The notes under the pieces are model-generated. The model had not been told where the DNA came from and made no database searches. It was given only the letters and a program-made list of their open reading frames with translations. 60,492 nt of DNA, from assembly GCA_016935755.1 (NCBI GenBank), contig JAFGQI010000021.1:1-60492 (forward strand). Direction: 5' to 3'. Position numbers and translations under genes: made by a program. The DNA comes from Anaerolineales bacterium (GTDB lineage Bacteria > Chloroflexota > Anaerolineae > Anaerolineales > UBA4823). Below, in pieces: positions 13,624 to 27,968 of this stretch (position 1 is the first letter of the stretch; each line of letters begins with the position of its first letter).

Positions 13624-13751
13624 AAGCAACCTCGAGGTAGATAAGATGGTTTCTGGAATCAAAATATATCATAAAAACACATTTACAAGGTATACTTTAG
13701 CTTCGTAAATCTAATCAAACCAGATTGCAACGAAGGGAAAAGATAGATACG

Positions 13752-15026
13752 ATGGATGCTTTTCCGCCTCCGGGTTATATTCAAACCTCATCGATGATTG
13801 ATGGCATTGAAGTCTACATGCCTGCTCCTGCTGATGCAGGACCGCAGCAGGAGGTGGTGGATTTTAAGTGCCCCCAATGTGGCGCTGCGACCGCCTTCAG
13901 CGCAGCCGATGGCGGGCTGACCTGTTCACACTGCGGGTATTATGAAGCGCCGCAGTTGCCCATCGTGGGCAGAGGCGCGGATCAGTTTGAGTTCACGGTC
14001 GAAACCATACAGCGAGCGGCGCAGGGATGGGGGGAGGAACGTAAAGAAATGGCCTGCCAGAATTGCGGCGCTTTGACCACCCTCTCTGTGGATAGCCTGG
14101 CGCATACCTGCCCATTTTGTGGATCGAATAAAGTCATCCAGCGCCAGGCGCCGCAAGATGTGCTGCGGCCGCGCTTTCTGATCCCTTTCAAATTTGAACC
14201 GGCTGCTTGCGTCCAAAAAGCGCGAGCATGGCTGGGCAGCAGTTGGATGGTGCCTGCCGGCTTGAAGACCGCTGCTGCTCTGGAGAATTTCACTGCGGTC
14301 TACCTGCCTTTCTGGACTTTCGACGCGCTAACAAACGCCGATTGGAAGGCTGAGGTTGGGCATATTCAGACGGAAAGCTACTACGAGAATGGCGAGCGGA
14401 AGCAGCGCACAGTTACGGTGTGGCGATGGGAGTCGGGGCATGTCCAACTGACCATTGATGATCTGGTGGTGGATGGCACCGGACGCCTGAGCGCAGTGCT
14501 GCTTGGGCGCATCCGCGATTTTAACCTGGCCGAATTAACGCCTTACGAGCCGAAATTTCTGGCTGGGCTTCAGGCCCAGGCCTATGATATCCCGTTGGAG
14601 AAAGCCTGGGAGTTGGGGCGTGAGAAGATGCGCGAGCAGACGCGCAAAGCCTGCATTGAGAGGGCCAGCACTTCCCTGGTGAGAAATTTCAGCATGACCC
14701 TGGATTTTGCTGATGAGAGCTGGCGTTATCTCCTGCTGCCTGTCTATCTCAATACATATGCTTATGAAGGGAAGAGCTATCAGATGATGGTGAATGGGCA
14801 GACGGGCAGCATTGCCGGACAACGTCCGGCGGATTGGAATAAGATTTGGTTGTTGATCGCTGCGATCCTGGCGCCAGGGGTTCTGTTGGGGTTATTGGGC
14901 CTGATAACCATCCCTATTGCAGGAATAGGGGTTGGCATTGGAGGCGTGGGACTGGTGTTGTTATTGATTGGCCTGGTGATTGCGATTATCATCCTGGCTC
15001 AGGCAGTGAAGATGGAGGAGATTTAA
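13752..15026 (+). CDS. Zinc-ribbon membrane protein with C-terminal helices
   Basis: 424 residues from the ATG at 13752; a TTG at 13725 is possible but less likely. Two zinc ribbons lie near the N-terminus: CPQCG...CSHCG and CQNCG...CPFCG. A long middle region with YLPFWTFDA and YLLLPVYLNTYAYEG follows, then two closely spaced glycine/isoleucine-rich membrane helices near the C-terminus. This is the layout of poorly described membrane zinc-ribbon proteins found in many bacteria. It sits 3 bp ahead of a shorter relative (15029-16177) that has the same LLLLPVY motif and paired helices, so the two may form a complex. Function is unknown. Confidence 0.7.
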   Translation: MDAFPPPGYIQTSSMIDGIEVYMPAPADAGPQQEVVDFKCPQCGAATAFSAADGGLTCSHCGYYEAPQLPIVGRGADQFEFTVETIQRAAQGWGEERKEMACQNCGALTTLSVDSLAHTCPFCGSNKVIQRQAPQDVLRPRFLIPFKFEPAACVQKARAWLGSSWMVPAGLKTAAALENFTAVYLPFWTFDALTNADWKAEVGHIQTESYYENGERKQRTVTVWRWESGHVQLTIDDLVVDGTGRLSAVLLGRIRDFNLAELTPYEPKFLAGLQAQAYDIPLEKAWELGREKMREQTRKACIERASTSLVRNFSMTLDFADESWRYLLLPVYLNTYAYEGKSYQMMVNGQTGSIAGQRPADWNKIWLLIAAILAPGVLLGLLGLITIPIAGIGVGIGGVGLVLLLIGLVIAIIILAQAVKMEEI

Positions 15027-15028
15027 CC

Positions 15029-16177
15029 ATGGATACGAATCCCGATTCTTCCCAACAAGATCAATCCATGAACTCCTCGACAGCTGGCGCTGCCGAGGCG
15101 CCGAAGACAGGTTGGGGCATGGATTTTGAGGTCGCCGTGTGTGAGCGCTGTGATTGGAGCTATCTGATGCCCACAGGCAGCCTGCCTCAGACCTGTCCGC
15201 ACTGCTTCCAGGCCCATCTGACATCCCTTGGAGAGCAGCTTCAAGAACTGCCCTATATCAAGCCACCTGAGCTATGTTTGCCATTTACACTTTCGAGCGC
15301 CCGTTTAGCGCAATCTATTGAGAGTTTTGCGCGAGGCATTCCGTTCGCGCCAGCGGATCTCAATCCGAAAACACTGCAGAGCCGCCTGCGGCGGGTTTAT
15401 CTGCCCATGTGGCTGGTGGATGCCCAGGTTAAAGCAAGTTGGCAGGCAGAAGCAGGCTTTGATTACCAGGTTGTCAGCCACCAGGATCGTTACCAGGATT
15501 ATGGGGGCTGGACATCGCAAGAGGTCAAGGAAGGGCGAGTGCGTTGGGAGCCGCGTCTCGGGCGGCTGGATCGTACATATAGCAATATTCCCGTACCAGC
15601 CCTGGGTGAAGAGGGCCGCATACAGTCAGCATTGGGTGCTTACGCCCTGGATGATGCCCGTCCCTACCTCCCTGAGACACTGTCGGGATCGTTCGTTCGC
15701 TTGCCAAACCGGACGCCCGAGGATTCCTGGAGTGATGCCAAACCAGCCATCCAGCAGGCCGCGGCTGAGGAATGCGGAGATGCAGCCAGCGCTGACCATA
15801 TCCGCTCTTTCCGTTGGAGCCCTGAGTTCGCCAGCCAGAATTGGACGCTGCTGCTGCTGCCTGTCTACGCCAGTTATTACCAGGATGATGAGGGCAAGCC
15901 TCAGCCGGTGCTGCTGCATGGTAGAACTGGGAGGTTGAGCGGGGCGCGTCGCGCTTCGCCGAAACGAGCCCAATCCACCGCCCTGAGTATGCTGGCGGCT
16001 GCCCTGGTTTTTGGCCTGATCGCCATGGTGATCTTGCTGGTTGGGATCGCCATGCCCGCTTTGCTGGCGATCGGTGTGATCGTCCTGGTATTTGCCCTGC
16101 TGGTTGGGCTTGGGGCAATCTACCCGTTGGCAGCAGTCTGGTGGTTCAATCGGCAGGAGAGGCCAGGCCAGATCTAA
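15029..16177 (+). CDS. Zinc-ribbon membrane protein, paralogue of the upstream gene
   Basis: 382 residues from the ATG at 15029, with a GGAGGAG site overlapping the end of the previous gene. One zinc ribbon near residue 40 (CERCDWSYLMPTGSLPQTCPHC) is followed by a region with LRRVYLPMWLVDAQ and WTLLLLPVYASYYQDDEG that parallels the upstream protein, then two C-terminal membrane helices. The start is fixed by the ribosome site; a longer frame exists upstream but overlaps the first gene. The pair looks like an old tandem duplication now diverged. No catalytic motif is seen and the role is unknown. Confidence 0.72.
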   Translation: MDTNPDSSQQDQSMNSSTAGAAEAPKTGWGMDFEVAVCERCDWSYLMPTGSLPQTCPHCFQAHLTSLGEQLQELPYIKPPELCLPFTLSSARLAQSIESFARGIPFAPADLNPKTLQSRLRRVYLPMWLVDAQVKASWQAEAGFDYQVVSHQDRYQDYGGWTSQEVKEGRVRWEPRLGRLDRTYSNIPVPALGEEGRIQSALGAYALDDARPYLPETLSGSFVRLPNRTPEDSWSDAKPAIQQAAAEECGDAASADHIRSFRWSPEFASQNWTLLLLPVYASYYQDDEGKPQPVLLHGRTGRLSGARRASPKRAQSTALSMLAAALVFGLIAMVILLVGIAMPALLAIGVIVLVFALLVGLGAIYPLAAVWWFNRQERPGQI

Positions 16178-16195: not shown

Positions 16196-16684
16196 TTAAT
16201 GGATTATCTCGGCAGGTTCTTGATTCAGTTCTGCCAGCAGGGCGAGTAATTCCTGGTTCTCTGGAATATCCGCCATCGATTTGCCATAATGAACGTAGCG
16301 CACCATGCCTGCTCTATCAACGATCAGCTGGGCTGGCAAACGTCCCAATTTGAACAGGTTAACTTCTTGCCCATAGAGTTTTAAGACCGTATGTTCAGGG
16401 TCTGGCAGACCAACAAAGGGAAGCTGATGATCCTGCCAGTATTTTGAGAATGAAGCCGGCCCCTCTGGCCCAATCACAATTACTTCTGTATCTAACTCAA
16501 CGAAACGCTGATAATCTTGACGCAACTGCGCCATATGTGCCTGGCAGAAGGGTCAGGTGAAGGTGCGGTTAAACACTAATACCACATTTTTCTTTCCGTA
16601 GTAATCGGATAAACGTACGGCTTTGCTTTTGAAGTCTTGCAAAGAAATTTCCGGTGCTTGTGTGTTCAGTTTTACTTGGGACAT
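16196..16684 (-). CDS. Probable selenocysteine-containing peroxiredoxin-like (AhpC/TSA) protein
   Basis: Read from the ATG at 16684, which has an AAGGAA site, the frame gives 162 codons if the TGA at 16553-16555 is decoded. Codon 44 is that TGA, in the context FNRTFT-U-PFCQAHMAQL, where thioredoxin-fold peroxiredoxins have the peroxidatic cysteine (CPFC). The fold continues well past it (VIVIGPEG, LPFVGLPDPEHTVLKLYG, LIVDRAGMVRYVHYG), and C47 remains as a resolving partner. Codon use and family resemblance are unbroken on both sides, which argues against decay. The enzyme would reduce peroxides using thioredoxin-type donors in the cytoplasm. It is last in the SDR/hydrolase operon. A TGC-to-TGA mutation or base error remains the alternative. 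Confidence 0.72.
16518..16533 (-). promoter_or_regulatory. Candidate bacterial SECIS hairpin
   Basis: On the minus strand, 20 bases after the TGA, TGGCGC (16533-16528) pairs with GCGTCA (16523-16518) around an AGTT loop: six pairs, one of them G-U. The loop has a G in its second position, 27 bases from the TGA. Small apical loop, G among its first two bases and this distance fit the described rules for bacterial SECIS elements. The hairpin is short, so this is supportive only. Confidence 0.45.
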
Positions 16685-16722
16685 TTTTTGTTTCCTTAAT
16701 TATTCAAATCTTTGCTTGGCGC

Positions 16723-17673
16723 TTATGGCAGCCTGGCAAGAAAATCCAGGACGGCTTCGAGAAAAGCCTGGGGGCATTCTTCATGCGGCACGTGCCCGCA
16801 GGCCGGGATGACAACCAGTTCTGCGTTAGGCAGTTCGCCTGCCAGCCGGATGCTGTCTTCGGTTGGGACAATGCGATCATCATCGCCGGTAATCACTAAC
16901 ACCGGCAGCTTTAATTGATCCAGTTGTTGGTCTAAATTTAAATCCTGGCTGGCAGTGGTCAGGTGCCATAGGGCGCGGTCCCAATTCTCCACCCGGGTGG
17001 GTTTAATGTAACCTTCCAGCACTTCGGCAGTTATTTTCGAAGGATCATGCCAGGCCTGGTTGATCAGCGTGCTGCCGCGACCGAGGATGTTGCGCGCAAT
17101 CAGCGGGCCGATGCGCTGCATCTGCGGCGTTTTGGCGATGGGCGCGAACCAGCTGGGTGATCCGCCGGTATAGATGGCTGGGTCCACCAGGATCAGCGCC
17201 TGGACGCGCTCTGGATACCGAAGCGCAGTGAGCACAGCAATGCTGCCTCCAGCCGAGTTGCCCACCAGGATGGCTTTTTCGATGTCCAGTTGATCCATCA
17301 GGCCAATGGTGAGTCTGGCCTGGGATTCTGGGCTGTAGGGGTTATCACCTTGCCATTCCATTGGGCGTTCGGTCAGGCCAAAAGCAGGCCGGTCAAAAGC
17401 AACAACCCTATGCTCCTGCCCGAACGGCTCCATCACCTCGCGCCAGGAAAACAGGCTGGCGCCAAAGCCGTGCAGCAGAACCAGAGGTGGATTGCCCCGC
17501 CCGGTTATTTTGTAGTGAACTTGCAAGTCCTCGATATTGATAAAGCGGCTGTCTGCTTCAGCCAGCTGTTCGATCAGTTGGATGCCCTCCAGGGGCGGTA
17601 TCGGCACGAGAAAGGGACCAACTAAAACCAACAGGAATATACAGAAAGCTGTAATGAGAAGAAAGCGTTTCAT
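16723..17673 (-). CDS. Alpha/beta hydrolase with N-terminal membrane anchor
   Basis: 316 residues. Residues 4-27 form a hydrophobic anchor or signal segment. The hydrolase fold follows: LVLLHGFGASLFSW (oxyanion region), nucleophile S140 in VGNSAGGS, acid aspartate in VITGDDDRIVP, and histidine in PACGHVPHEECP near the C-terminus, so the triad is complete. The family includes esterases, lipases, haloperoxidase-like and C-C hydrolases; the substrate is not indicated. It lies 9 bp after the preceding hydrolase gene and 38 bp before the peroxiredoxin gene, in the operon driven from the promoter at 20107-20135. GGGAGGG is present upstream of the ATG. Confidence 0.85.
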   Translation of the reverse strand: MKRFLLITAFCIFLLVLVGPFLVPIPPLEGIQLIEQLAEADSRFINIEDLQVHYKITGRGNPPLVLLHGFGASLFSWREVMEPFGQEHRVVAFDRPAFGLTERPMEWQGDNPYSPESQARLTIGLMDQLDIEKAILVGNSAGGSIAVLTALRYPERVQALILVDPAIYTGGSPSWFAPIAKTPQMQRIGPLIARNILGRGSTLINQAWHDPSKITAEVLEGYIKPTRVENWDRALWHLTTASQDLNLDQQLDQLKLPVLVITGDDDRIVPTEDSIRLAGELPNAELVVIPACGHVPHEECPQAFLEAVLDFLARLP

Positions 17674-17681
17674 ACCAAAAA

Positions 17682-18425
17682 TTACCCTCCCAATCCTTCC
17701 AGCAGTTCAATTGTAGCACGGGTCGCCAATCCCTGCTGCTCTTCCCGGGTGATATCCGCAGGCAAGTCGCCAGGTTGATCCCCATACCAGCCAAAGTAGG
17801 CATGATTACCTCCTGCAATAGCAACCCAACGCATGTATGCCGGCAGCAAGGCACGAGAAGCCTCGATTTTATCCGCTGTGGCGAGACCGTCTTTTGAGCC
17901 AAAAATGGATGCAACCTGGATATCTTGTCCGGAGAGATCATCACTGGAGGCAGGATAGGCGGCCCACAAAACCAACCCGGCAATCTTGTCCGGGTTTTTA
18001 TGAGCATAATTGGCTGCCATGGCTCCACCTAACGAATGACCACCAATTGCCCATTGCCGGATTTCGGGAAATGCAGCTATGATTTCATCTGCAATCCCGG
18101 GTGAAAAGACAGCCAGGTTGAGCGGCATGGGCGGAATCACCACCAGATAACCCTGGGCGGCGATTGCTCTGGCTGCGGGCGCGTAAGAGCGATAATCCAC
18201 TCGCCCGCCTGGATAGAAAATCAATCCGGTGGATGCTTCCTGGGCTGATGGTTGAAAAACAAGCCAGGGAGTGGTTTGCACAATAACCTGGTCATCGGAT
18301 GTAAGGGAAGCGATGCCCTCAGGCATAGGTCCAAGCGGAGTCTGGCTCCAGATGATAAAGCCAAACAGGCCGAACAAAAGCAGCAGCGGTAAAATCCACC
18401 AGGTTTTATTGATCAATTTTTTCAT
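17682..18425 (-). CDS. Alpha/beta hydrolase family protein, membrane-anchored
   Basis: 247 residues with an N-terminal hydrophobic segment (about 8-27) and an alpha/beta hydrolase core: GLIFYPGGRVDYRSYAP near the oxyanion position, nucleophile S131 in GGHSLGGAMA, an FGSKDGL acid region and the GGNHAYFG histidine. This resembles small alpha/beta hydrolases related to dienelactone hydrolase and is probably active outside the membrane. Its ATG overlaps the stop of the SDR gene (ATGA, 18422-18425), so translation is coupled to it. It is not closely similar to the next hydrolase in the operon. Substrate unknown. Confidence 0.82.
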   Translation of the reverse strand: MKKLINKTWWILPLLLLFGLFGFIIWSQTPLGPMPEGIASLTSDDQVIVQTTPWLVFQPSAQEASTGLIFYPGGRVDYRSYAPAARAIAAQGYLVVIPPMPLNLAVFSPGIADEIIAAFPEIRQWAIGGHSLGGAMAANYAHKNPDKIAGLVLWAAYPASSDDLSGQDIQVASIFGSKDGLATADKIEASRALLPAYMRWVAIAGGNHAYFGWYGDQPGDLPADITREEQQGLATRATIELLEGLGG

Positions 18426-19972
18426 TGAGAAATTTTCCCTTCACCAGTGGAGGTATGGACAGCAGCCTGCTCCCCAATTTCCTGTACCATGCCGGCAAAG
18501 ATATAAGCGTGGATGGGATAAAAAAGATACCAATACAGCAGGCCTGACAACCCTTTCGGTTCAAAGAAAGTGGTTTGAACCAGTCGCGTACCTCCTTTCT
18601 CGTCAGGGATGGACTCAAATTGTAGCCAGGCCTTTCCCGGCACTTTCATTTCTGCCCGCAAGCGGACCAGGCGATCGGGATTTACTGCTTCAACACGCCA
18701 AAAATCGACCGCGTCGCCAACGCGTAAATCATCGGGATGCCGGCGCCCACGTCGCATGCCTACTCCCCCTACCAGGCGGTCGACCACTCCTCGCAGTTTC
18801 CAGGCGAAGTTGAATGTCAGCCAACCTCTTGTGCCGCCCAACCCACTATAAGTTCGAAAGACTTGGGCAGGAGAGGTGGCAACCAATTTTTGACGTCTTT
18901 CGATGATCAGGCCCTGTTCTTGGGTGAGGATAACAGGCGGCAGATCTCCCTGGCTGCTGGCAAGGGCGTCTGACCAGATGGTGTCACCTTCACCGGCTTC
19001 GATTTTTTTTAGAGCATTCATGACAGAGGTTTCATAGTCGATTGGTTGGATATCCGGGAACAAACGTAGAGAGCTGTCAGAGCGAACGATGACTTCGTTG
19101 CGTAAGCCATCAATCAGCGGGCGGGCGACGGAGGCAGGTAAGGGAGTGACCAGGTGCACCCAATAGGATGACAGGCGAGGGGTGAGCACTGGAATGGGCA
19201 AGAGCACTCGCTTGAGCTTACGCGCCCTGGCATAACCCATCATCATGTCCCCATAGGTGAGTACATTTTTGCCGCCAATTTCGATAATCTTGCCGGTGGA
19301 TTCGGGTTGCTCCAAAGCAGCCAGGAGGTATTGTAAGACATCGTCGATGGAGATGGGCTGCGTTCGGGTGTACACCCAGCGCGGGCAAATCATAATGGGC
19401 ACTCGCTCAGTCAGGTAGCGAATCATTTCAAAGGATATGCTGCCAGAGCCAACGATCACTGCGGCGCGAAACTCAGTCACTGGTATGCCCGATTGGCGTA
19501 GTGCATCCCCTGTCATCTGGCGAGAGCGTAAATGTTTCGATAACTCTGTCTCTGGATCTCCCAGTCCGCCCAGGTAGATGATGTTTTGGACGCCAGCCTC
19601 CTTTGCTGCCGCTCCAAAATGGCGTGCTGCTGTCAGGTCGCGTTCAAGAAAGTCAGTGCTGCTGCCCATACTGTGGATCAGGTAATAAGCCGCATATACA
19701 CCAGTCATGGCAGGAAGGATGGTTTCGGCTTTCATCACATCCCCCTGGAAAACCTCTACCTGATTTAACCATGCTCGTCCTTGCAGGCGCTGGGGATCAC
19801 GGACCAGCACACGGACCCGATATCCCTCGCTGAGTAATTGGGGGATCAGCCGCCCACCCACATATCCGGTTGCTCCAGTTACCAGGATAGATTTTTTCCC
19901 TGGTATGGCTGCAGGAGAGTTTTTTGTTCTTGGCGTCGGGTTGTTCATGATATCAATCGATTTTTCTTTCAT
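18422..19972 (-). CDS. NAD(P)-binding SDR protein with C-terminal DUF2867 domain
   Basis: 516 residues. The N-terminal half is an atypical short-chain dehydrogenase: the nucleotide loop VTGATGYVGGRLIPQL, RVLVRDPQR, and YLIHSMG in place of the classical YxxxK region. The C-terminal half (about 340-510) is the DUF2867 lipid-binding-like domain, with FWRVEAVNPDRLVRLRAEMK and a hydrophobic FYPIHAYIF end. The combination is widely found and unassigned biochemically. In other bacteria such genes often sit beside photolyase or carotenoid genes, which fits here. A downstream ATG (19948) is an equally plausible start. It opens the leftward operon ending in the peroxiredoxin and has the CarH-type repeats in its promoter. 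Confidence 0.85.
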   Translation of the reverse strand: MKEKSIDIMNNPTPRTKNSPAAIPGKKSILVTGATGYVGGRLIPQLLSEGYRVRVLVRDPQRLQGRAWLNQVEVFQGDVMKAETILPAMTGVYAAYYLIHSMGSSTDFLERDLTAARHFGAAAKEAGVQNIIYLGGLGDPETELSKHLRSRQMTGDALRQSGIPVTEFRAAVIVGSGSISFEMIRYLTERVPIMICPRWVYTRTQPISIDDVLQYLLAALEQPESTGKIIEIGGKNVLTYGDMMMGYARARKLKRVLLPIPVLTPRLSSYWVHLVTPLPASVARPLIDGLRNEVIVRSDSSLRLFPDIQPIDYETSVMNALKKIEAGEGDTIWSDALASSQGDLPPVILTQEQGLIIERRQKLVATSPAQVFRTYSGLGGTRGWLTFNFAWKLRGVVDRLVGGVGMRRGRRHPDDLRVGDAVDFWRVEAVNPDRLVRLRAEMKVPGKAWLQFESIPDEKGGTRLVQTTFFEPKGLSGLLYWYLFYPIHAYIFAGMVQEIGEQAAVHTSTGEGKISQ

Positions 19973-20090
19973 CCAGAAAAGATAACCACACTGGCAACTT
20001 GTTGTGTTTAATCATAGCAATTCCCAATTCAAAGACTTTGGTACTGCCACAAATCACAGCAAATTGATCTTGTAAAACAGGTATATTCAT
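19953..20090 (-). CDS. Possible leader small protein, 45 residues
   Basis: An open frame of 45 codons starts at an ATG (20090) about 10 bases after the expected transcription start of the CarH-type promoter and stops at 19953-19955, overlapping the first ATG of the SDR gene and ending 5 bases before its second ATG. GGAG lies 2 bases before the start, closer than ideal. The product begins MNIPVLQDQFAVICG and ends WLSFLDERKID. I do not recognise it. It may be a translated leader that couples to the SDR gene, a remnant, or chance. Confidence 0.3.
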   Translation of the reverse strand: MNIPVLQDQFAVICGSTKVFELGIAMIKHNKLPVWLSFLDERKID

Positions 20091-20106
20091 TGCTCCAACA
20101 AACGAT

Positions 20107-20146
20107 AGTATAACAGAATGTACATATATTGTCAATATATTGTATA
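20107..20146 (-). promoter_or_regulatory. Promoter with CarH/LitR-type direct-repeat operator (SDR operon)
   Basis: On the minus strand, TTGACA (20135-20130), a 17-bp spacer and TATACT (20112-20107) form a near-consensus promoter. Three head-to-tail 11-bp repeats overlap it: TATACAATATA (20146-20136), TTGACAATATA (20135-20125) and TGTACATTCTG (20124-20114), all TnnACA. The rest of the 305-bp gap between the SDR and GNAT genes holds only this promoter, the small leader frame and an AT-rich stretch. Confidence 0.72.
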
Positions 20147-20277
20147 TATTCAATCGGCTCGCTTTGGGTTGGGTTTTTGGGAATTGGGCTTGCCTACGCA
20201 GCACTTCAACCACATCCTATCGGGTGGTTACTCCCCCTGTATTATTTTTGCTGGGCGCGATGTCTCAATCAGTGGTT

Positions 20278-21405
20278 CTATATCTTGCGGTGAAACACCC
20301 GGTGGTTCTTGTATGCTTTGCCGCCCACGTTGATCAAGTCACTGCGCATCTGTACGGCAGTCTCAGCCACCTGGGTCATATCGGCATGCTCGAAGTGGTA
20401 TTCCTTGACCGTTTTTTCCATTTCAGAATACATCAGGGCATTGCCGCCGCGCCCCTGATATTCGGGCAGGATGCCGGTGCCGTTCAGGGCAACCCATTTT
20501 GTACGGCGCATTTCTAACATTAAGTCAATCAGACCGAACGGCAGCAAACGGCCTTTATTGCGCTGTAATGCGGCGGAGATATCCGCGAATCCGAACAGGA
20601 AGCCCACCGCATCCTCATTATGAGTGATAATTTTGATCAGCCGGGGATCGGCGATAGTCATGATATTGTCGACTACAAACTTAATTTCGCGGTCGGTGAG
20701 CGGGTAGTATTCCCAGTTGTTCACAAAAGCCTTATTGTAGGCCTGCCCGATGCGCGGCGAGTAGGAGACCAGATCCGCCTTGTCTTTGAAGCGTCTGACC
20801 GCCAGGGTGCCGCGCTGCTGGACTCGTTCGGCGATGCGGTGGACGCGTTCGGGCAGATTAAATTCTGCTGTGTTCATGTAGCAGGAGACAAAATCCACTT
20901 CTTTTTCAAAACCGAGGTTGGTGACCATGCGAGGGATATATGGATGGTTGTAATTCATCATCGTCATCATCTGGCGGTGTTCAAAGCCTTCGACAACGAT
21001 CCCATAGCCATCTAATGGGCCTAAACCCTTGGGCCCTATGACCGTGTCCAATCCACGGGCGCGCGACCATTCGAAAACAGCCTCGAATAAGGCGTTTGCC
21101 GTTTCCTGGTTATCCTCGCATTCAAAAAAGTAGAACTGAGCCTGCTTTGTGCCGTGATACTGGTTATAGCGGGTGTTTTCCAGGGCGGCAATGCGACCGA
21201 CATCTTTTCCATCCCGGACGGCAATGAAGAAATCGCCCGTGGAATGCTCATAAAACGGATGCTTGTTGGGGTTGAGCATATCGGTGACATCTTTCAGCAG
21301 GGGTGGAACCCATTGGGGTGTGTCGGTATAAAATTGAAAGGGCAAATGCACAAAGCGCTGAACCTGGGCTTTGTTCGCAGTATCGATCTTTTCAATTTTA
21401 AGCAT
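20278..21405 (-). CDS. GNAT-fold N-acetyltransferase-like protein
   Basis: 375 residues from the ATG at 21405, which has a GGAGG site; an upstream non-ATG start would add 23 residues but is unlikely. The protein resembles a family of two-lobed acyltransferase-like proteins of about 370-390 residues. Motifs seen are FFIAVRDGKDVGRIAALENTR, YNKAFVNNWEYYPL and, near the C-terminus, GTGILPEYQGRGGNALMYSEM, which is the acetyl-CoA pyrophosphate loop of GNAT enzymes (Q/RxxGxG/A). The acyl acceptor is unknown. It follows the HD-domain gene in the leftward block that begins at the epimerase. Confidence 0.75.
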   Translation of the reverse strand: MLKIEKIDTANKAQVQRFVHLPFQFYTDTPQWVPPLLKDVTDMLNPNKHPFYEHSTGDFFIAVRDGKDVGRIAALENTRYNQYHGTKQAQFYFFECEDNQETANALFEAVFEWSRARGLDTVIGPKGLGPLDGYGIVVEGFEHRQMMTMMNYNHPYIPRMVTNLGFEKEVDFVSCYMNTAEFNLPERVHRIAERVQQRGTLAVRRFKDKADLVSYSPRIGQAYNKAFVNNWEYYPLTDREIKFVVDNIMTIADPRLIKIITHNEDAVGFLFGFADISAALQRNKGRLLPFGLIDLMLEMRRTKWVALNGTGILPEYQGRGGNALMYSEMEKTVKEYHFEHADMTQVAETAVQMRSDLINVGGKAYKNHRVFHRKI

Positions 21406-21555
21406 GGTCGCCTCCGGGAGGAGAATAGGGAAAATGCCAGAGGAAATATGGTGATAGCCTGTGGTATTCCGCAAAAATCATAACACACAATTCCAGAATA
21501 GGGTTCGGAATTCACCTGGTCGTTCCTGATCGGGCTATCCAGTTTATGGGTGAAC

Positions 21556-22176
21556 TCACCAACCGAATGTATTTTCAACAACTCCAGGGAGCAGATGATA
21601 TATGGATATGCCAATCAGCGACTCAAAATGCTCTTTTGCTTTGAAAAATGCCTTCCAGCGGCTGAGGGTGTGGTCGTGCAGCCCATAGCGCATGACCACA
21701 TCCACCATCCTCTTTTCCATCAGGCAGTAGCCGTTGGGCAGCGCCAGGCAGTCGCACAGCTGGATCAATCGGTCGTAATCGTCGTATTCGATGTGGGCGA
21801 TGTAGTCGCGCACAAACTGCAGTTCATCATCGCTCCCATCCCAGTGCGTTGCGCCGATAATTTCGTCTTTATGCGGATAAGAATGAGTCAGGCAGATGCG
21901 GGCGGCGGCTTCGTAGCCCTCGTTCGAGAGATAACGATATCCATCCAGCACATGGCGCATATGCGTCTTCCCATAACGGCGTCCAATATCATGCAGCAGG
22001 CCCAGGATATAGGCCCGCTGGCTGTCCAGGTCTGGGTGGCGGGCGGCAATCGCCTGGGCGGCCTGGGCGACATAGCGCGAGTGCGGCTCCCAGGGGCCGG
22101 GGTTCAGTTGGGCCGCCTCACAGAGGTATTGTTCGGCCTGTTTCAGGTCGGGGAGTGAGTTGTTAGGGTCGCTCAA
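21556..22176 (-). CDS. HD-domain hydrolase
   Basis: 206 residues starting at a TTG (22176) with AGGAG upstream. The HD metal-binding motif is in AYILGLLHDIGRRYG, with H in PHSRYV before it and HSYP after, the usual order for HD phosphohydrolases. The segment DDYDRLIQLCDCLALPNGYCLMEKR supplies the late aspartate. Small stand-alone HD proteins act on nucleotides, phosphoesters or tRNA; no closer assignment is possible. The start lies 4 bp from the photolyase stop, so the pair is translationally linked. Confidence 0.78.
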   Translation of the reverse strand: MSDPNNSLPDLKQAEQYLCEAAQLNPGPWEPHSRYVAQAAQAIAARHPDLDSQRAYILGLLHDIGRRYGKTHMRHVLDGYRYLSNEGYEAAARICLTHSYPHKDEIIGATHWDGSDDELQFVRDYIAHIEYDDYDRLIQLCDCLALPNGYCLMEKRMVDVVMRYGLHDHTLSRWKAFFKAKEHFESLIGISIYHLLPGVVENTFGW

Positions 22177-22179
22177 AGA

Positions 22180-23610
22180 TTATGCTCCTGAAGATCCAGC
22201 CTGCCCATAGACGCGCAGCGCCCGGTCGCGTGCCCAGACATGCTTGATGATCGGGGCGGGATAATCTGTCCCGATCCAGCATTGACAGGATTTTTGCAGC
22301 TCCACGGGCATCTTCCAGGGTTCGTGGATGTATTCCGCTGGGACTCTTGCCAGTTCTGGCAGCCAGCGGCGGATAAAACTGCCCTGCGGGTCATGCCGCA
22401 TGCCCTGGGTCACCGGGTTGAAGATGCGGAAGTAAGGGGCGGCGTCGGTGCCGGTGCCAGCGGTCCACTGCCAGCCGCCGTTGTTGGAGGCCGGGTCGCC
22501 ATCGATCAGGTGCTGCATGAACCAGCGCTCGCCCCAGCGCCAATCCACCAGCAGATCCTTGGTGAGAAAGGAGGCCGCGATCATGCGCAGGCGGTTGTGC
22601 ATCCAGCCGGTCTGGGCCAGCTGGCGCATGGCAGCATCCACGATGGGATAGCCGGTGCGCCCTTCGCTCCAGACCTGGAATTGATCTGGATCATTGACCC
22701 ATTGGATATGCTGCATGCGGAAGTTCTGCCTGCGCACATGGGGATAATGGAACAGGATATAGAGATAAAATTCACGCCAGATCAGCTCATTCAGCCAGGT
22801 CTCCGCGCTCTGGCGCGCCTCTGCATCGGGAGCCAGCTGGATGGCATGCAGGGCGGCAGAGACGGCTGTCTTGGCTAAGAGCATGCCAAAGCGCAGGTAG
22901 GGGGACAGACCGGAGGTAGCCTCAAGGTCGGGACGGTTTCTCCCGGAGCTGTAGCCATACACAGGCGGGAGCGGTGAATCTGACCCTTCGCCGGGCAGAT
23001 AGACGAAGGCATCCAGACGCCGCAGCGCTTCTGCCTCGCCCGCCGGGAAAGAGGTCGTTTCTGGAGCGTCTGGCAGGGGCAGGGAGGGGAGGCCTGCCGG
23101 GGTGTGGATCGGGCTGGGGAGATGCGGGACGATCCCGGCCTGGGGCAGGTAAAAAGCTTTCCAGGCTCTGCTGAAGGGGGTAAATACGGTGTATGGGGAG
23201 CCGTTCGATTTCAGGATCGCCCCCAGAGGGTGCATGCTTGGCCCGCCCACCCAGTTGATGGGCAGTGATTGGGTAACCTTCTCGTCTCGCTGGCGAGCAT
23301 AGGGCGAGATATCTGGCTCAGCAAAGATCGCCTCAGCCTGGCATTCATCCATCAGCCCTTTCAGCTCTATCAGCGGATCACCCCGGCGCACCACCAGATA
23401 GCTGCCCTGGCGGCGCAGGTCTGCATCCAGCTGGCGCAGCCCTGCGTACAGGAAAGCCAGGCGTTTCTGGCCGACGTAGGAGGAGGCCAACAATTTCGGA
23501 TCCAGGATAAAAACAGGAATGACTTCTTGGGCTGCCTCCAGAGCGGTCAATAATGCCTGGTTATCCCGCAGACGCAGATCACGGCGAACCCACCAGATAG
23601 CTCGTGTCAT
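22180..23610 (-). CDS. phr: Deoxyribodipyrimidine photolyase (class I CPD-type)
   Basis: 476 residues from the ATG at 23610, which follows GGGGAGTG and overlaps the end of the upstream reductase. The antenna-binding N-terminal domain begins IWWVRRDLRLRDNQALL. The FAD-binding C-terminal half has TWLNELIWREFYLYILFHYP, the FAD and DNA-contact segment RTGYPIVDAAMRQLAQTGWMHNR, and SNNGGWQWTAGTGTDAAPYFRIFNP. It uses blue light to split cyclobutane pyrimidine dimers. Its place beneath a promoter bearing putative CarH repeats, with a photoreceptor gene next to the operon, gives a coherent light-protection set. A cryptochrome-like role cannot be ruled out but the DNA-repair motifs are intact. Confidence 0.93.
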   Translation of the reverse strand: MTRAIWWVRRDLRLRDNQALLTALEAAQEVIPVFILDPKLLASSYVGQKRLAFLYAGLRQLDADLRRQGSYLVVRRGDPLIELKGLMDECQAEAIFAEPDISPYARQRDEKVTQSLPINWVGGPSMHPLGAILKSNGSPYTVFTPFSRAWKAFYLPQAGIVPHLPSPIHTPAGLPSLPLPDAPETTSFPAGEAEALRRLDAFVYLPGEGSDSPLPPVYGYSSGRNRPDLEATSGLSPYLRFGMLLAKTAVSAALHAIQLAPDAEARQSAETWLNELIWREFYLYILFHYPHVRRQNFRMQHIQWVNDPDQFQVWSEGRTGYPIVDAAMRQLAQTGWMHNRLRMIAASFLTKDLLVDWRWGERWFMQHLIDGDPASNNGGWQWTAGTGTDAAPYFRIFNPVTQGMRHDPQGSFIRRWLPELARVPAEYIHEPWKMPVELQKSCQCWIGTDYPAPIIKHVWARDRALRVYGQAGSSGA

Positions 23611-23626
23611 TTTCACTCCCCAGCGC

Positions 23627-24598
23627 CTAATCGCCCACGATCCTGGCGCTGGTATCAACCAGCGCAGCGCTGAGCTCATCCAAAGCGGCTGCCTCCGTCT
23701 CGGTTAGCTGCCATCCCAGGGCGCCGGCATTTTCTTGCGCCTGGCGCACATTTTTTGCACCGGGGATGGGAACGGTGCCTTTTCCGATGCACCAGTTCAG
23801 CGCCACCTGCGAAGGAGATTTGCCATCATGCTCCCTGCCGATCTCCCGCATCTGCCGGATGAGGGGTTGGGTTTTCTCCAGGAAAGAGCGGCTGTAGCGG
23901 CGGCCGCGAATGCCTGGCATGGGTTTGTCCGGGGTATATTTACCGGTTAATGCGCCTTGGGCCAACGGGCTGTAAGCAATGAAAGTGATGCTAAGCTCCT
24001 GGCAGGCCTGCAGCAGCCCATTCAGCTCCCACTTGCGGTTGAGCAGATGGTATTCCATCTGGTTGGAAGCCAAAGGGATGCCGCGCTTTGCCAGGGTGGC
24101 ATAGGCGCGCCGCATTTGAGCTTCGTCATAGTTTGAAACACCGACTGCTTTGACCAGACCTTGCTCTACCGCATCTGCCAGCGCGTCGGCCCAGGTTTCC
24201 ACCGGCACGGGAGGCCAGGGCCAGTGGATCTGATACAGATCGACGCTGGTGATTTTCAGGCGCTCCAGGCTGTGTCGCAGCGCGCTGATCAAGCTTTTCT
24301 TCGACCAGCGCCAGGGAAGCGGCATGAACTTGGTGGCGACTACGACTGGCGCTTTAGCAGTTGGCAGCAAGCTGCCCAGGATGCGTTCTGAGCGGCCTCG
24401 GCCGTAGGCTTCCGCCGTATCAATAAAGGTGACTCCGGATTCGAGACTGACTTCAAAGGCTGCCCGGATGTCATCATCCTGGTAGCCGCGGCCGTAGTTC
24501 CACATCAGGCGATCTCCCCAAGCCCAGGCACCTAATCCCAACCGGGATATCCTGATCTCGGTTTTTCCCAGAGCAGTTGTTGAGGAAATATCAGCCAT
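23627..24598 (-). CDS. Aldo/keto reductase
   Basis: 323-residue NADPH-dependent aldo/keto reductase, full length. Tetrad positions are seen in FIDTAEAYGRG (D and Y), VATKFMPLP (K) and YQIHWPWPP (H). The C-terminal cofactor segment reads IPGAKNVRQAQENAGALGW. It belongs to the large Tas/YajO-like subgroup and differs clearly from the reductase at 1697-2551. It lies between the TIGR01777 epimerase and the photolyase, with a 41-bp gap on one side and an overlap with the photolyase ribosome site on the other. A place in the same transcript suggests reduction of photo-oxidation products, which is inference. Confidence 0.88.
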   Translation of the reverse strand: MADISSTTALGKTEIRISRLGLGAWAWGDRLMWNYGRGYQDDDIRAAFEVSLESGVTFIDTAEAYGRGRSERILGSLLPTAKAPVVVATKFMPLPWRWSKKSLISALRHSLERLKITSVDLYQIHWPWPPVPVETWADALADAVEQGLVKAVGVSNYDEAQMRRAYATLAKRGIPLASNQMEYHLLNRKWELNGLLQACQELSITFIAYSPLAQGALTGKYTPDKPMPGIRGRRYSRSFLEKTQPLIRQMREIGREHDGKSPSQVALNWCIGKGTVPIPGAKNVRQAQENAGALGWQLTETEAAALDELSAALVDTSARIVGD

Positions 24599-24638
24599 GA
24601 TAACCCCAGTAATTAATGATGATCCCGATTTTCATCTG

Positions 24639-25553
24639 CTAGCCTCTTAACACATCGCGCAGAGCTGCCTCAGCCTGGGGATATTGGAACTTGAAGCCCG
24701 CTTCGTTCAGCCGCGCCGGGATGACCCGCTGCCCTTCCAGCAAAACCGAGGACAACTCTCCAAATACCAGGCGCATGGCGAAGGCTGGTACGGGCATCAG
24801 GGCTGGGCGATGCATTGCCCGGCCAATGGCGCGGGAAAATTCAGCATTTGTTGCCGGGTACGGCGAGGTCAGGTTGAAGATACCTGCCAGGGCTGGGTTT
24901 TCAATCAGAAAGCGGATGCCGGCGACCGTATCTGCCAGGTGAATCCAGGAAAGATACTGCCGGCCGCTGCCAATTTTACCGCCCACGAACAATCGAAAAG
25001 GCAGCAGCATGCGCGGCAGCGCGCCGCCATGAAGAGACAGGGACACACCCATGCGAATGATCGCCCGGCGGACGCCCAGGCCCTCAACTCTGGCAGTGGC
25101 ATTTTCCCATTCGATGCACACCCGGCTGGAAAAATCTGCGCCAGGGGCGCCGGATTCGTCCACCAGCTCATCCTGACGCGGGCCGTAATATCCCACCCCA
25201 GAGGCCTGGATCACCACCTCGGGTTTTTGCCCGGCGCCATCTACAGCCTGGACGATCGCCTGCCCGGCATGCACCCGGCTGTCCCGGATGGCCTGTTTGC
25301 GGGCCTCCGTCCAACGCCCGGCAGCCAGGTTTTCGCCCGCCAGGTTCACGATTGCTTTAGCGCCATCCGCCAGGCTGCCCCAGCCTGCTGCGCTCTTGCC
25401 ATCCCAGCCGACCGCCCGCACCCCTTCAGGAAGCTTTTCCTTCTGTCTGTCTGGTTGGCGAGACAAGATGAAAACTTCGTAGCCGTTCTTTATCAGTTCG
25501 GTCGAAAGGGCGGCCCCAATCAACCCTGAACCACCTGGAATAATCACACGCAT
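24639..25553 (-). CDS. TIGR01777-family NAD(P)-dependent epimerase
   Basis: 304 residues, matching the TIGR01777/YfcH family throughout: IIPGGSGLIGAALSTELI, WDGKSAAGW, AIVNLAGENLAAGRW, RVHAGQAIVQAV, QASGVGYYGPRQDELVDES, SWIHLADTVAGIRFLIEN, NLTSPYPATNAEFSRAIGRAMHRPA and the C-terminal VFGELSSVLLEGQRVIPARL. This extended short-chain-dehydrogenase family is common and its reaction is not established. It is the first gene of the leftward block, 60 bp beyond a strong TTGACG/TATAAT promoter that carries the CarH-type direct repeats, and is divergent from the B12-binding regulator. A GAGG site precedes the ATG. Confidence 0.88.
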   Translation of the reverse strand: MRVIIPGGSGLIGAALSTELIKNGYEVFILSRQPDRQKEKLPEGVRAVGWDGKSAAGWGSLADGAKAIVNLAGENLAAGRWTEARKQAIRDSRVHAGQAIVQAVDGAGQKPEVVIQASGVGYYGPRQDELVDESGAPGADFSSRVCIEWENATARVEGLGVRRAIIRMGVSLSLHGGALPRMLLPFRLFVGGKIGSGRQYLSWIHLADTVAGIRFLIENPALAGIFNLTSPYPATNAEFSRAIGRAMHRPALMPVPAFAMRLVFGELSSVLLEGQRVIPARLNEAGFKFQYPQAEAALRDVLRG

Positions 25554-25612
25554 AGGATGACCTCACTTTCTCGAAGACATGTTGATCGCTTTGGTTTTTG
25601 GTTGTGCGTCCT

Positions 25613-25663
25613 ATTATAGCTGTATTGGGCCGGTTCGTCAATATATTGTATAGAATATGTATA
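25613..25663 (-). promoter_or_regulatory. Promoter with CarH/LitR-type direct-repeat operator (epimerase-photolyase operon)
   Basis: On the minus strand, TTGACG (25641-25636), a 17-bp spacer and TATAAT (25618-25613). Three tandem 11-bp repeats run into the -35 box: TATACATATTC (25663-25653), TATACAATATA (25652-25642) and TTGACGAACCG (25641-25631). Sixteen bases here (25637-25652) are identical to 20131-20146 in the SDR promoter. Confidence 0.72.
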
Positions 25664-25669
25664 AATATC

Positions 25670-25698
25670 TTGACAAAATATAGACTTATTGTTAAAAT
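25670..25698 (+). promoter_or_regulatory. Promoter of the B12-binding regulator gene
   Basis: TTGACA at 25670-25675, a 17-bp spacer and TAAAAT at 25693-25698, about 40 bp before the ATG. The -35 lies 7 bp from the divergent repeats, and TTGACAAAATA followed by TAGACTTATTG gives two looser copies of the same 11-bp unit on this strand, so autoregulation is likely. Confidence 0.65.
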
Positions 25699-25736
25699 AT
25701 TATTGTTAGAATGTGAACAAAAGATGGAGTGATTAG

Positions 25737-26711
25737 ATGAGTCCTTTACCCGAAGTGTTTCTTGGCAGCAATGAACCATTATACAACATAGGCGTGGTGG
25801 CGCGTATGACCAACGTCTCGATGGCGACTTTACGCGCCTGGGAGAGACGTTATGAATTCCCTGAGTCGGAGCGCACTGCCGGAGGGCACCGTTTGTATTC
25901 GGAGCGCGATGTGATGCGTTTGAAGTGGGTCAAGGAACGCATAGATGAGGGTATGCAGACCGCCCAGGCGATCCATGCCCTGCGGCATCAGGAGCAAGTT
26001 GGGAATGTGTCATCTTCGCAGCCGCTGGCAGCTCCCCCGGAAGTGAGATCTGAAAAAAGCATCCAACACCTGGGGATGACGAGCGATCAACTGTTTCATG
26101 CGCTGATCAATCGTGACTTGTCCCAGGCGGATTGCTTGTTAGGAGAAGCCCTGGCAGTCTCCTCTCCTGAGGATTTGATCCTGGATGTGATCGGTCCAAC
26201 CATTTCACATATCGGGGACGTCTGGGAAGAAGGCAAGATCAGTGTAGCCACGGAACATCTGGCGACGAATTACCTGCGCCAGAGGCTGCTGATGTGGATG
26301 ATGAGCGGTCCACCGCCGCGTAATATCAGCCCGATCGTGCTGGCCTGCGCGCTGGATGAGTGGCACGAGGGTGGGCTGCTGATCCTGGGCGCGCTGCTGC
26401 GCCGCCGCCGCTGGCCAGTGGCTTACCTGGGGCAGGCGGTGCCGCTACCTGACCTGGCGGGCTTCGTGCGCGACCTGCACCCCAGCCTGTTGGTCATGAT
26501 AGCAATGACGGAAAAAACCGCGGCAGTTTTGGCGGATTGGCCGCAGTGGCTGCCGGAGGTCGCTCAAAGTGGGAAGCCGCCGGTTGGGTATGGCGGAAGG
26601 GTTTTTACCCTGCAGCCAGAATGGCGTCTGCGGGTAGTGGGCAATTACCTGGGTGATGATTTCCGCAGCGGGCTGGCGGAGATTGAAAGGCTGCTGCCCG
26701 CAGGGGGATGA
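25737..26711 (+). CDS. MerR-type regulator with cobalamin-binding domain (CarH/LitR photoreceptor family)
   Basis: 324 residues in three parts. Residues 15-75 are a MerR helix-turn-helix (GVVARMTNVSMATLRAWERR, then RTAGGHRLYS). Residues 112-190 are the four-helix B12-cap domain, with the Wx9EH signature at W163, E173 and H174 that in CarH sits over adenosylcobalamin. Residues 197-310 are the Rossmann B12-binding domain, with the lower-ligand histidine H210 in DEWHEGG. Known CarH/LitR proteins bind DNA as dark-state tetramers with adenosylcobalamin and release it in light. The gene is divergent from the epimerase-reductase-photolyase block, shares its control region, and has a GGAG site 8 bases before the ATG. 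Light sensing by this protein is inferred. Confidence 0.87.
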   Translation: MSPLPEVFLGSNEPLYNIGVVARMTNVSMATLRAWERRYEFPESERTAGGHRLYSERDVMRLKWVKERIDEGMQTAQAIHALRHQEQVGNVSSSQPLAAPPEVRSEKSIQHLGMTSDQLFHALINRDLSQADCLLGEALAVSSPEDLILDVIGPTISHIGDVWEEGKISVATEHLATNYLRQRLLMWMMSGPPPRNISPIVLACALDEWHEGGLLILGALLRRRRWPVAYLGQAVPLPDLAGFVRDLHPSLLVMIAMTEKTAAVLADWPQWLPEVAQSGKPPVGYGGRVFTLQPEWRLRVVGNYLGDDFRSGLAEIERLLPAGG

Positions 26712-27880: not shown

Positions 27881-27895
27881 GTTGATCTTGTCCAG

Positions 27896-27968
27896 GGTGG
27901 GTGAAGGGTTTCGAACCCTCAACCACTTGATCCACAGTCAAGTGCTCTGCCATTGAGCTACACCCACC
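27896..27968 (-). tRNA. tRNA-His (anticodon GTG)
   Basis: On the minus strand the cloverleaf is complete: acceptor arms GTGGGTG and CACCCAC, D-arm TAGCTCAATGGCAGAGC, anticodon arm ACTTGACTGTGGATCAAGT with GTG, and T-arm GAGGGTTCGAAACCCTT. A G at 27968 precedes the acceptor stem opposite C73, the -1 guanosine special to tRNA-His. CCA is not encoded. It lies 32 bp after hisS on the same strand. Confidence 0.96.

Follow-up and report, generated by a model that had tools for sequence, protein, structure and literature searches.

What does a regulator built like the vitamin B12-dependent photoreceptor CarH control where no carotenoid genes surround it? The question is raised by a 60,492-nucleotide stretch of Anaerolineales DNA (contig JAFGQI010000021.1; hereafter the window, meaning the whole stretch), in which carH, a gene for a CarH/LitR-type regulator, lies divergent from an operon with photolyase, reductase and epimerase genes (operon 1) and near a second operon that ends in a peroxiredoxin gene (operon 2; Table 1). 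An earlier note on this DNA had proposed a light- and B12-controlled regulon of about nine genes, and all of the genes it named were recovered where it had placed them. The sequence contains a regulator with the architecture and motifs of the family, tandem repeats that are fused to promoters at five of six sites, and a recurrence of such repeats before the same gene families. We consider it highly probable, judging from these features, that the regulator controls a photo-protection regulon through tandem 11-bp repeats. The CarH-type regulon appears to be real and likely larger than the earlier note had it, with a link to heliorhodopsin as its most interesting part.

In the mechanism that we propose, the regulator would bind adenosylcobalamin (AdoCbl) and, in the dark, would oligomerise and repress from the tandem repeats of the two window operons and of four further sites in the genome bin. 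Green or blue light would break the cobalt-carbon bond and release the regulator from DNA, and would probably induce a single protective programme that these genes share. Its predicted outputs from the window are photolyase and a selenocysteine peroxiredoxin together with several NAD(P)H-dependent reductases and hydrolases; the remote sites would add heliorhodopsin, a fasciclin lipoprotein, an M50 protease and a P-type cation ATPase with an antiporter.

The regulator belongs to the CarH/LitR family

The regulator scored over the cut-off for MerR_1, B12-binding_2 and B12-binding in Pfam: the N-terminal MerR domain reached 55 bits for PF13411 (cut-off 21.6), and PF02607 and PF02310 together form a complete C-terminal B12 module. 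The residues W163, E173, H174, E208 and H210 were invariant in a 37-row alignment. Both the Wx9EH signature (W163..E173-H174) and the E and H of the lower axial histidine motif ExH (E208-W209-H210) were kept in 13 of 13 orthologs (L007-L019; G, C and L numbers are our handles for genomes, contigs and loci). Its best sequence matches in the PDB were chains of Thermus thermophilus CarH (TtCarH; 3whp, 121 bits), which, with the domains and the invariant residues, bears out the family assignment and the four signature residues (W163, E173, H174, H210) named in the earlier note. The AlphaFold model (mean predicted local distance difference test score, pLDDT, 86) had TtCarH as its top Foldseek match in the PDB (5c8e_G, E 3.2e-20), and cobalamin-domain chains reached a target-normalised TM-score of about 0.8 with a root-mean-square deviation mostly of 2.6-3. 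VIA-align put photocobilins slightly above CarH; since the best rows lay within about 1.5 Z of one another, we rejected a closer kinship to photocobilins based on this order.

One residue sets the protein apart from TtCarH. The histidine beside the capping tryptophan is replaced by Glu at position 164, and among the 13 orthologs the residue after this tryptophan is E in 12 and L in one. In TtCarH the histidine becomes the upper ligand in the light, giving a bis-His state (PMC8156234). A light response that involves no bis-His state is known from the photocobilin SasPcob (PMC10979010). By analogy with that photocobilin, the bis-His residue is probably not a defining trait of AdoCbl sensing. Because Glu or Leu takes its place, we predict that the light state of the regulator is aquo/hydroxo-cobalamin. 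With the residue responsible for the textbook light state missing, this CarH lineage may differ in its oligomer and in its photoproduct chemistry.

Other CarH-like proteins among the loci vary more widely. L022, L028 and L032 each hold two CarH-like genes, of which one has Y or Q after the capping tryptophan and the other has H, and L043 gave two CarH-like tblastn matches in one locus. At L023, L024, L026, L027, L029-L031 and L033-L035, CarH-like proteins lie in open frames of 435-714 amino acids, which exceeds the length of CarH; their motif reads QQEH or HQEH, and they perhaps have another architecture.

Tandem repeats are fused to promoters in the window and elsewhere in the bin

Known CarH operators consist of three or four tandem 11-bp repeats of the type nnnnTnnACAn placed over the -35 or -10 element, with three in CarHTt (PMC9304148), and this published consensus was used for the scans, with a reversed pattern as control. 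Repeats were scored in three-repeat units (maximum 12, threshold at least 10) and promoters as a -35/-10 pair (maximum 12; spacer of 16-18 bp in the bin scan). A first pattern derived from the window sites, WTTGACAATATANNNACA with up to three mismatches, was too loose (54+58 matches vs 25+31 in the control); it served as a lead only, and the published consensus took over.

The two window operators match this consensus perfectly (operon 2) and with one mismatch (operon 1), in agreement with the earlier statement that the second operon has the same type of operator, and both are fused to a -35/-10 pair scoring 11/12 with a 17-bp spacer. On the opposite strand, the carH promoter starts 7 bp from the operator of operon 1. 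With such proximity carH is likely autoregulated from the shared intergenic region, and one occupied site could shut both directions.

The draft bin that holds the window (G000; 4.10 Mb in 177 contigs, completeness 87.5, estimated contamination 7.45%) contained 13 sites with at most one mismatch, four of them perfect, compared with three for the reversed pattern. A -35/-10 pair scoring 11/12 was present at five of the 13 sites; the other eight had none above 9. These five are the two window operators and sites on C90, C145 and C176. The C90 site, which differs from the operator of operon 2 at one of 28 positions, precedes an operon that encodes a CBS-domain M50 protease, a P-type cation ATPase, an antiporter of the sodium/proton exchanger family and a P-II-like protein. 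Antiporter homologs, with a LysE-type gene beside them, also adjoin the carH clusters of two relatives (L056:14033-15304, L059:15325-16623, L066:5238-6539), which supports the antiporter's place in the regulon. The sites at L072, L074, L076, L077, L078, L080 and L083 were taken for chance as they lack a strong promoter. We retained the site before the heliorhodopsin gene on C143 as a candidate despite its absent promoter pair, on evidence from relatives given below. With carH and all downstream genes counted, the proposed regulon comes to about 17 genes; the figure of about nine is thus probably too low, given four more operator-like sites on other contigs, three of them with strong promoters.

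A scan with a loose pattern also returned an AT-rich string repeated over the bin's contigs C50, C84 and C141 (around base 62-82) and C30 (9728), and also C19, C34 and C45. It lies near a contig end in at least four and probably represents a repetitive element that interrupts the assembly.

The operator recurs before the same gene families in relatives

We compared 151 genomes, the window's bin among them. The close relatives found with the regulator sequence in named genomes (L036-L042) are Anaerolineales, Chloroflexi or Chloroflexota records. Among 15 carH loci (the window, 13 loci from the ortholog search and L040), 14 had a divergent-strand repeat score of 10-12/12 within 300 bp; a shorter search of 160 bp (200 for L040) gave 13, the site at L019 lying further out. 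In 13 of the 14 operator-bearing loci a repeat holds or adjoins the -35, with a -10 at 17 bp and a pair score of 10-12/12. The divergent clusters, that of the window included, carry a TIGR01777-type epimerase in nine of the 15 loci, photolyase in eight, a conserved protein that looks GNAT-like by eye in eight and an aldo/keto reductase in six, all lower bounds as several loci are cut by contig ends. A flavin adenine dinucleotide (FAD) oxidoreductase is added to the cluster in L039, L041 and L062.

A stricter pattern, TNNACAN5TTGACAN5TNNACA with the -35 as middle repeat, occurred at 15 places in 12 of the 151 genomes, compared with one for its control; two of the 15 are in the window's bin. At six of the 13 places outside it, a homolog of a gene from the proposed regulon follows downstream, namely a short-chain dehydrogenase/reductase (SDR) fused to DUF2867 (L124), peroxiredoxin (L127, L129, and L132 after a 175-residue frame), the 177-residue protein (L133) and hydrolase 1 (L128, as second gene). 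Further places precede a major facilitator superfamily gene (L122), a membrane protein gene (L125) and ABC permease genes (L126 and L130), and those at L121, L123 and L131 were judged chance-like by gene context. Where a close carH ortholog is present, six of 14 genomes contained the pattern, vs six of 137 where it is absent; G010 counts among the former solely through L123, which we judged to be chance. Five of the six pattern-bearing genomes without a close ortholog hold a more distant CarH-like gene, and no such gene was found in the sixth, G028.

Candidate operators precede some heliorhodopsin genes

The heliorhodopsin gene of the bin (C143, L088:927-1694; PF18761 339.9 bits, cut-off 26.7) is preceded by four tandem units scoring 3, 4, 3 and 4 of 4. 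Heliorhodopsin was present in 29 of the 151 genomes. Nine of 30 heliorhodopsin upstream regions, the bin's own included, scored at least 10/12 on the sense strand, compared with a Markov expectation of 0.45 and with two of 30 on the antisense strand; eight of 29 are independent of the discovery, and 21 of the 30 had no site at this threshold. Four of the nine site-bearing regions (L091, L093, L101, L107) are fused to a -35/-10 pair scoring 10 or 11/12; the other five, the bin's own among them, have no pair scoring at least 10. As a control, upstream regions of lgt in the same 29 genomes reached the threshold in none of 24 cases on the sense strand and in one of 24 on the antisense strand, six of 30 loci having been left out for want of the motif. 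In unselected 250-bp windows on both strands the counts were 15 of 814 for heliorhodopsin loci vs six of 874 for lgt loci.

Gene content gave a similar contrast. Nine of 30 heliorhodopsin loci, vs none of 30 lgt loci, had homologs of proposed regulon genes at a distance of up to about 1.5 kb, and a CarH-like gene was present in 23 of 29 heliorhodopsin genomes vs 45 of 122 others (Fisher 5e-5, uncorrected for relatedness). In G003 (L091, C1), a CarH-like gene (513-1433; 34% identical to that of the window) stands directly beside a heliorhodopsin gene whose product is 88% identical to that of the bin and which has an 11/12 operator fused to a promoter upstream. We lean, with modest confidence, toward the reading that a B12 photoreceptor controls a rhodopsin here, CarH repressing heliorhodopsin in the dark within one photo-protection regulon. 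Light perceived through AdoCbl would then trigger synthesis of a retinal-based light protein.

The function of heliorhodopsin is unsettled, and its neighbour lists have so far been read as lists of binding partners. Ten groups of frequent neighbours, among them photolyase, a MerR regulator, SDR and alpha/beta hydrolase, have been described and interpreted as possible protein partners (PMC11109279). These are the same families as in the window's regulon, for which we propose co-regulation through a CarH operator instead, a second and testable reading. If true, CarH control would explain why heliorhodopsin so often adjoins photolyase, SDR, hydrolase and MerR genes, and would place it in a light-stress programme with photolyase, a selenoperoxidase and ion transport. 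Photolyase and carotenoid genes have also been noted near one heliorhodopsin subtype (PMC8612252), in a paper in which a term search gave no match for MerR, LitR, B12 or cobalamin. Searches of the open full-text literature gave no paper for heliorhodopsin with CarH, a weak negative as most subscription journals lie outside the search. For heliorhodopsin with MerR, the sole match in PMC9529153 was an author name in the references, and rhodopsin with LitR, B12 and light-inducible gave no title on the topic.

The proposed light-controlled regulon weighed against alternative explanations

Several observations weigh against a light-controlled regulon of this extent. The regulator scored 156.3 bits for the NCBIfam CarH equivalog NF052513, below the cut-off of 400, and for this reason we file it under the CarH/LitR family and not under that equivalog. 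In the PDB alignment, W209 and A234 stand where TtCarH has R176 and D201, the residues of its dimer-dimer (tetramer) contact; with these replaced, the oligomer may differ. The corrinoid adenosyltransferase PF02572 (CobA/BtuR) was not found in the bin, the PduO and EutT types not having been searched for. Among the carH loci, L040 has no divergent operator (score 8), and L016 has one but no good promoter in register (score 9). Of the bin's four perfect matches, two (C30 and C72; loci L072 and L074) are without a promoter and look like chance, the heliorhodopsin site on C143 has the repeats but no -35/-10 pair at threshold, and all four remote operators lie on other contigs (C90, C145, C176, C143) of a bin with 7.45% estimated contamination. 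Finally, actinobacterial heliorhodopsin transcripts rise in the dark, which counts against light induction as a general rule (PMC8591293).

The loss of the TtCarH light-adduct histidine in all 13 orthologs could mean that the regulator senses the presence of B12 and represses whenever AdoCbl is available, light being irrelevant in the habitat. Two close carH orthologs with photolyase (L036, L037) come from records DeMMO6_43 and DeMMO6_61; DeMMO6 is a deep-mine observatory without light, and a regulon for light repair would be unexpected if the cells lived in the dark. The outputs, however, are photo-protective (photolyase, peroxiredoxin and heliorhodopsin, with CrtI-like and SQS_PSY genes in G110), and a photocobilin shows that light can be sensed without a bis-His state (PMC10979010), so that we regard sensing of B12 alone as unlikely. 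Less probable still is that only the window operons form the CarH regulon and that the remote operators come from a contaminating organism with its own CarH. The contamination estimate and the scatter of the sites over four contigs would allow this, but the C90 operator is nearly identical to that of operon 2, the bin yielded a single CarH-like match at E values up to 1e-15, and the gene for the 177-residue protein also has a perfect operator in a relative (L133). The least probable of the three is that the repeats mark a constitutive or stress promoter, strong and AT-rich, and that the CarH-like protein controls its own intergenic region only. It is true that the repeats overlap the -35, where TTGACA itself fits TnnACA and the match is partly built in, that AT-rich DNA lifts scores, and that the contrast between heliorhodopsin and lgt is smaller in unselected 250-bp windows. 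Promoters would not be expected to show the register and the three-fold 11-bp spacing, however, nor do the lgt promoters or the Markov expectation reproduce the heliorhodopsin counts, and the matches in relatives land on the same gene families. Control of a dispersed photo-protection regulon by the CarH/LitR-type protein is the reading we prefer.

Relation to known systems

The window protein shares with TtCarH, a class I LitR (5c8d/5c8e/5c8f), the domain order, Wx9EH, the lower-ligand ExH and three tandem 11-bp nnnnTnnACAn repeats of which one holds the -35. It differs in having E164 instead of His after the tryptophan, in the loss of the dimer-dimer residues R176 and D201, and in targets that are repair and redox genes, not carotenoid genes. 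Myxobacterial CarH (Sorangiineae, Nannocystineae) resembles it in that carH is divergent from its target and operators were sought at other loci, but its targets are carotenogenic (PMC9304148). Photocobilins (8j2w, 8j2x) are fused to a bilin-binding domain, which is lacking in the window protein, a MerR regulator.

Class II LitR of Pseudomonas (PplR1-3 in P. putida, PmlR1/2 in P. mendocina) controls the photolyase gene phrB, which belongs to a light-inducible set, and a LitR region there also contains genes for a short-chain dehydrogenase and an FAD oxidoreductase (PMC9758184). These proteins have the four-helix part only and work with a LOV protein, unlike the window protein with its complete B12 domain. 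The suggestion that the regulon is of a kind not yet described therefore holds in part: photolyase with SDR and FAD-oxidoreductase genes nearby is known from Pseudomonas, while heliorhodopsin in particular would be new, as would the selenoprotein, the ion-transport operon and a CarH lineage lacking the bis-His residue of TtCarH. B12 light control would thereby extend to a non-carotenoid regulon in Anaerolineales relatives.

Genes and candidate regulatory elements of the region

Table 1. Genes, promoters and candidate operators (window positions unless a contig is named)
Feature	Position	Strand	Basis or remark
CarH/LitR-type regulator	25737..26711	+	MerR DNA-binding domain, four-helix B12-binding cap, Rossmann B12-binding domain
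carH promoter, TTGACA (25670-25675)-N17-TAAAAT (25693-25698)	25670..25698	+	Sequence
Candidate operator of operon 1, TATACA-N5-TATACA-N5-TTGACG, third repeat = -35 (25636-25641)	25636..25663	-	1 mismatch to consensus
-10 TATAAT of operon 1, 17 bp from -35 TTGACG	25613..25618	-	Sequence
TIGR01777-family epimerase/oxidoreductase (DUF1731), first gene of operon 1	24639..25553	-	338 bits, cut-off 207
Aldo/keto reductase, operon 1	23627..24598	-	Pfam
DNA photolyase, FAD-binding and antenna domains, operon 1	22180..23611	-	Pfam, NCBIfam; open reading frame (ORF) open to 23679
HD-domain hydrolase, operon 1	21556..22176	-	Pfam
Conserved protein, GNAT-like by eye only, operon 1	20278..21414	-	Homologs in 7 other carH clusters; no Pfam or NCBIfam match
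Candidate operator of operon 2, TATACA-N5-TTGACA-N5-TGTACA, middle repeat = -35 (20130-20135)	20119..20146	-	Perfect consensus match
-10 TATACT of operon 2, 17-bp spacer	20107..20112	-	Sequence
SDR (NmrA/NAD-binding) fused to DUF2867, operon 2	18422..19972	-	Pfam
Alpha/beta hydrolase 1, operon 2	17682..18425	-	Pfam
Alpha/beta hydrolase 2, operon 2	16723..17673	-	Pfam
AhpC/TSA-type peroxiredoxin, probable selenoprotein (UxxC: U-P-F-C), end of operon 2	16196..16684	-	Pfam with TGA read as U
In-frame TGA, probable selenocysteine codon	16553..16555	-	U-P-F-C context
Hairpin with AGUU loop shortly after TGA, candidate bacterial selenocysteine insertion sequence (SECIS)	16518..16533	-	Present in 6 sequences
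Predicted operator before M50/ATPase operon	C90:11357-11384		Promoter 11/12
Predicted operator before 177-residue protein (sub-cut-off ATP10 match)	C145:626-653		Promoter 11/12
Predicted operator before fasciclin lipoprotein gene cut by contig end	C176:458-485		Promoter 11/12
Predicted operator, begins 108 bases before start codon of heliorhodopsin	C143:819-846		1 mismatch

The terminal peroxiredoxin of operon 2, put forward earlier as a putative selenoprotein, is a probable one. Its frame extends upstream of a 112-residue ORF through a single TGA, and a flanking-motif search of the examined loci found TGA at the catalytic position in six of six distinct sequences. Across these sequences the candidate SECIS hairpin shows a GU/GC exchange and no compensatory double change, and single-sequence folds of it were weak (z -0.4 to -1.4 in three sequences). 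The bin holds selB over cut-off on C129 and a covariance match to tRNA-Sec (51.3 bits, gathering score 47; TCA anticodon by eye) that is broken by contig ends C3/C19 and was not called by ARAGORN. The assembly breaks within this tRNA-Sec sequence (L134/L135, at the start of C19 and the end of C3), and the two contigs may be neighbours.

That carotenoid genes are absent holds for the cluster genes of the window; elsewhere in the bin there are weak candidates. A CrtI-like FAD oxidoreductase on C54 falls below the TIGR02734 cut-off, with no operator in the short upstream stretch at the contig start, and the one SQS_PSY match (C142) is in a frame that begins like a hopene-cyclase fragment by eye. 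On these grounds we set aside a carotenoid pathway as the main target here. In G110 (L064), the first two genes of the cluster divergent from the carH ortholog encode a CrtI-like protein of the amine-oxidase family and a member of the SQS_PSY family. By gene order this is the classical carotenoid setting, in which the regulator family would keep a carotenoid-type link in a relative, and it seems that in the window's lineage the targets of an existing system were swapped and no new system was invented.

Two overlapping ORFs at 13725-16177 flank the cluster, with zinc-ribbon-like starts and membrane ends by eye, and their homologs also lie near carH in L060 and L066. A tRNA-His gene (GTG; minus strand, 27895-27967) lies downstream of carH and its neighbour.

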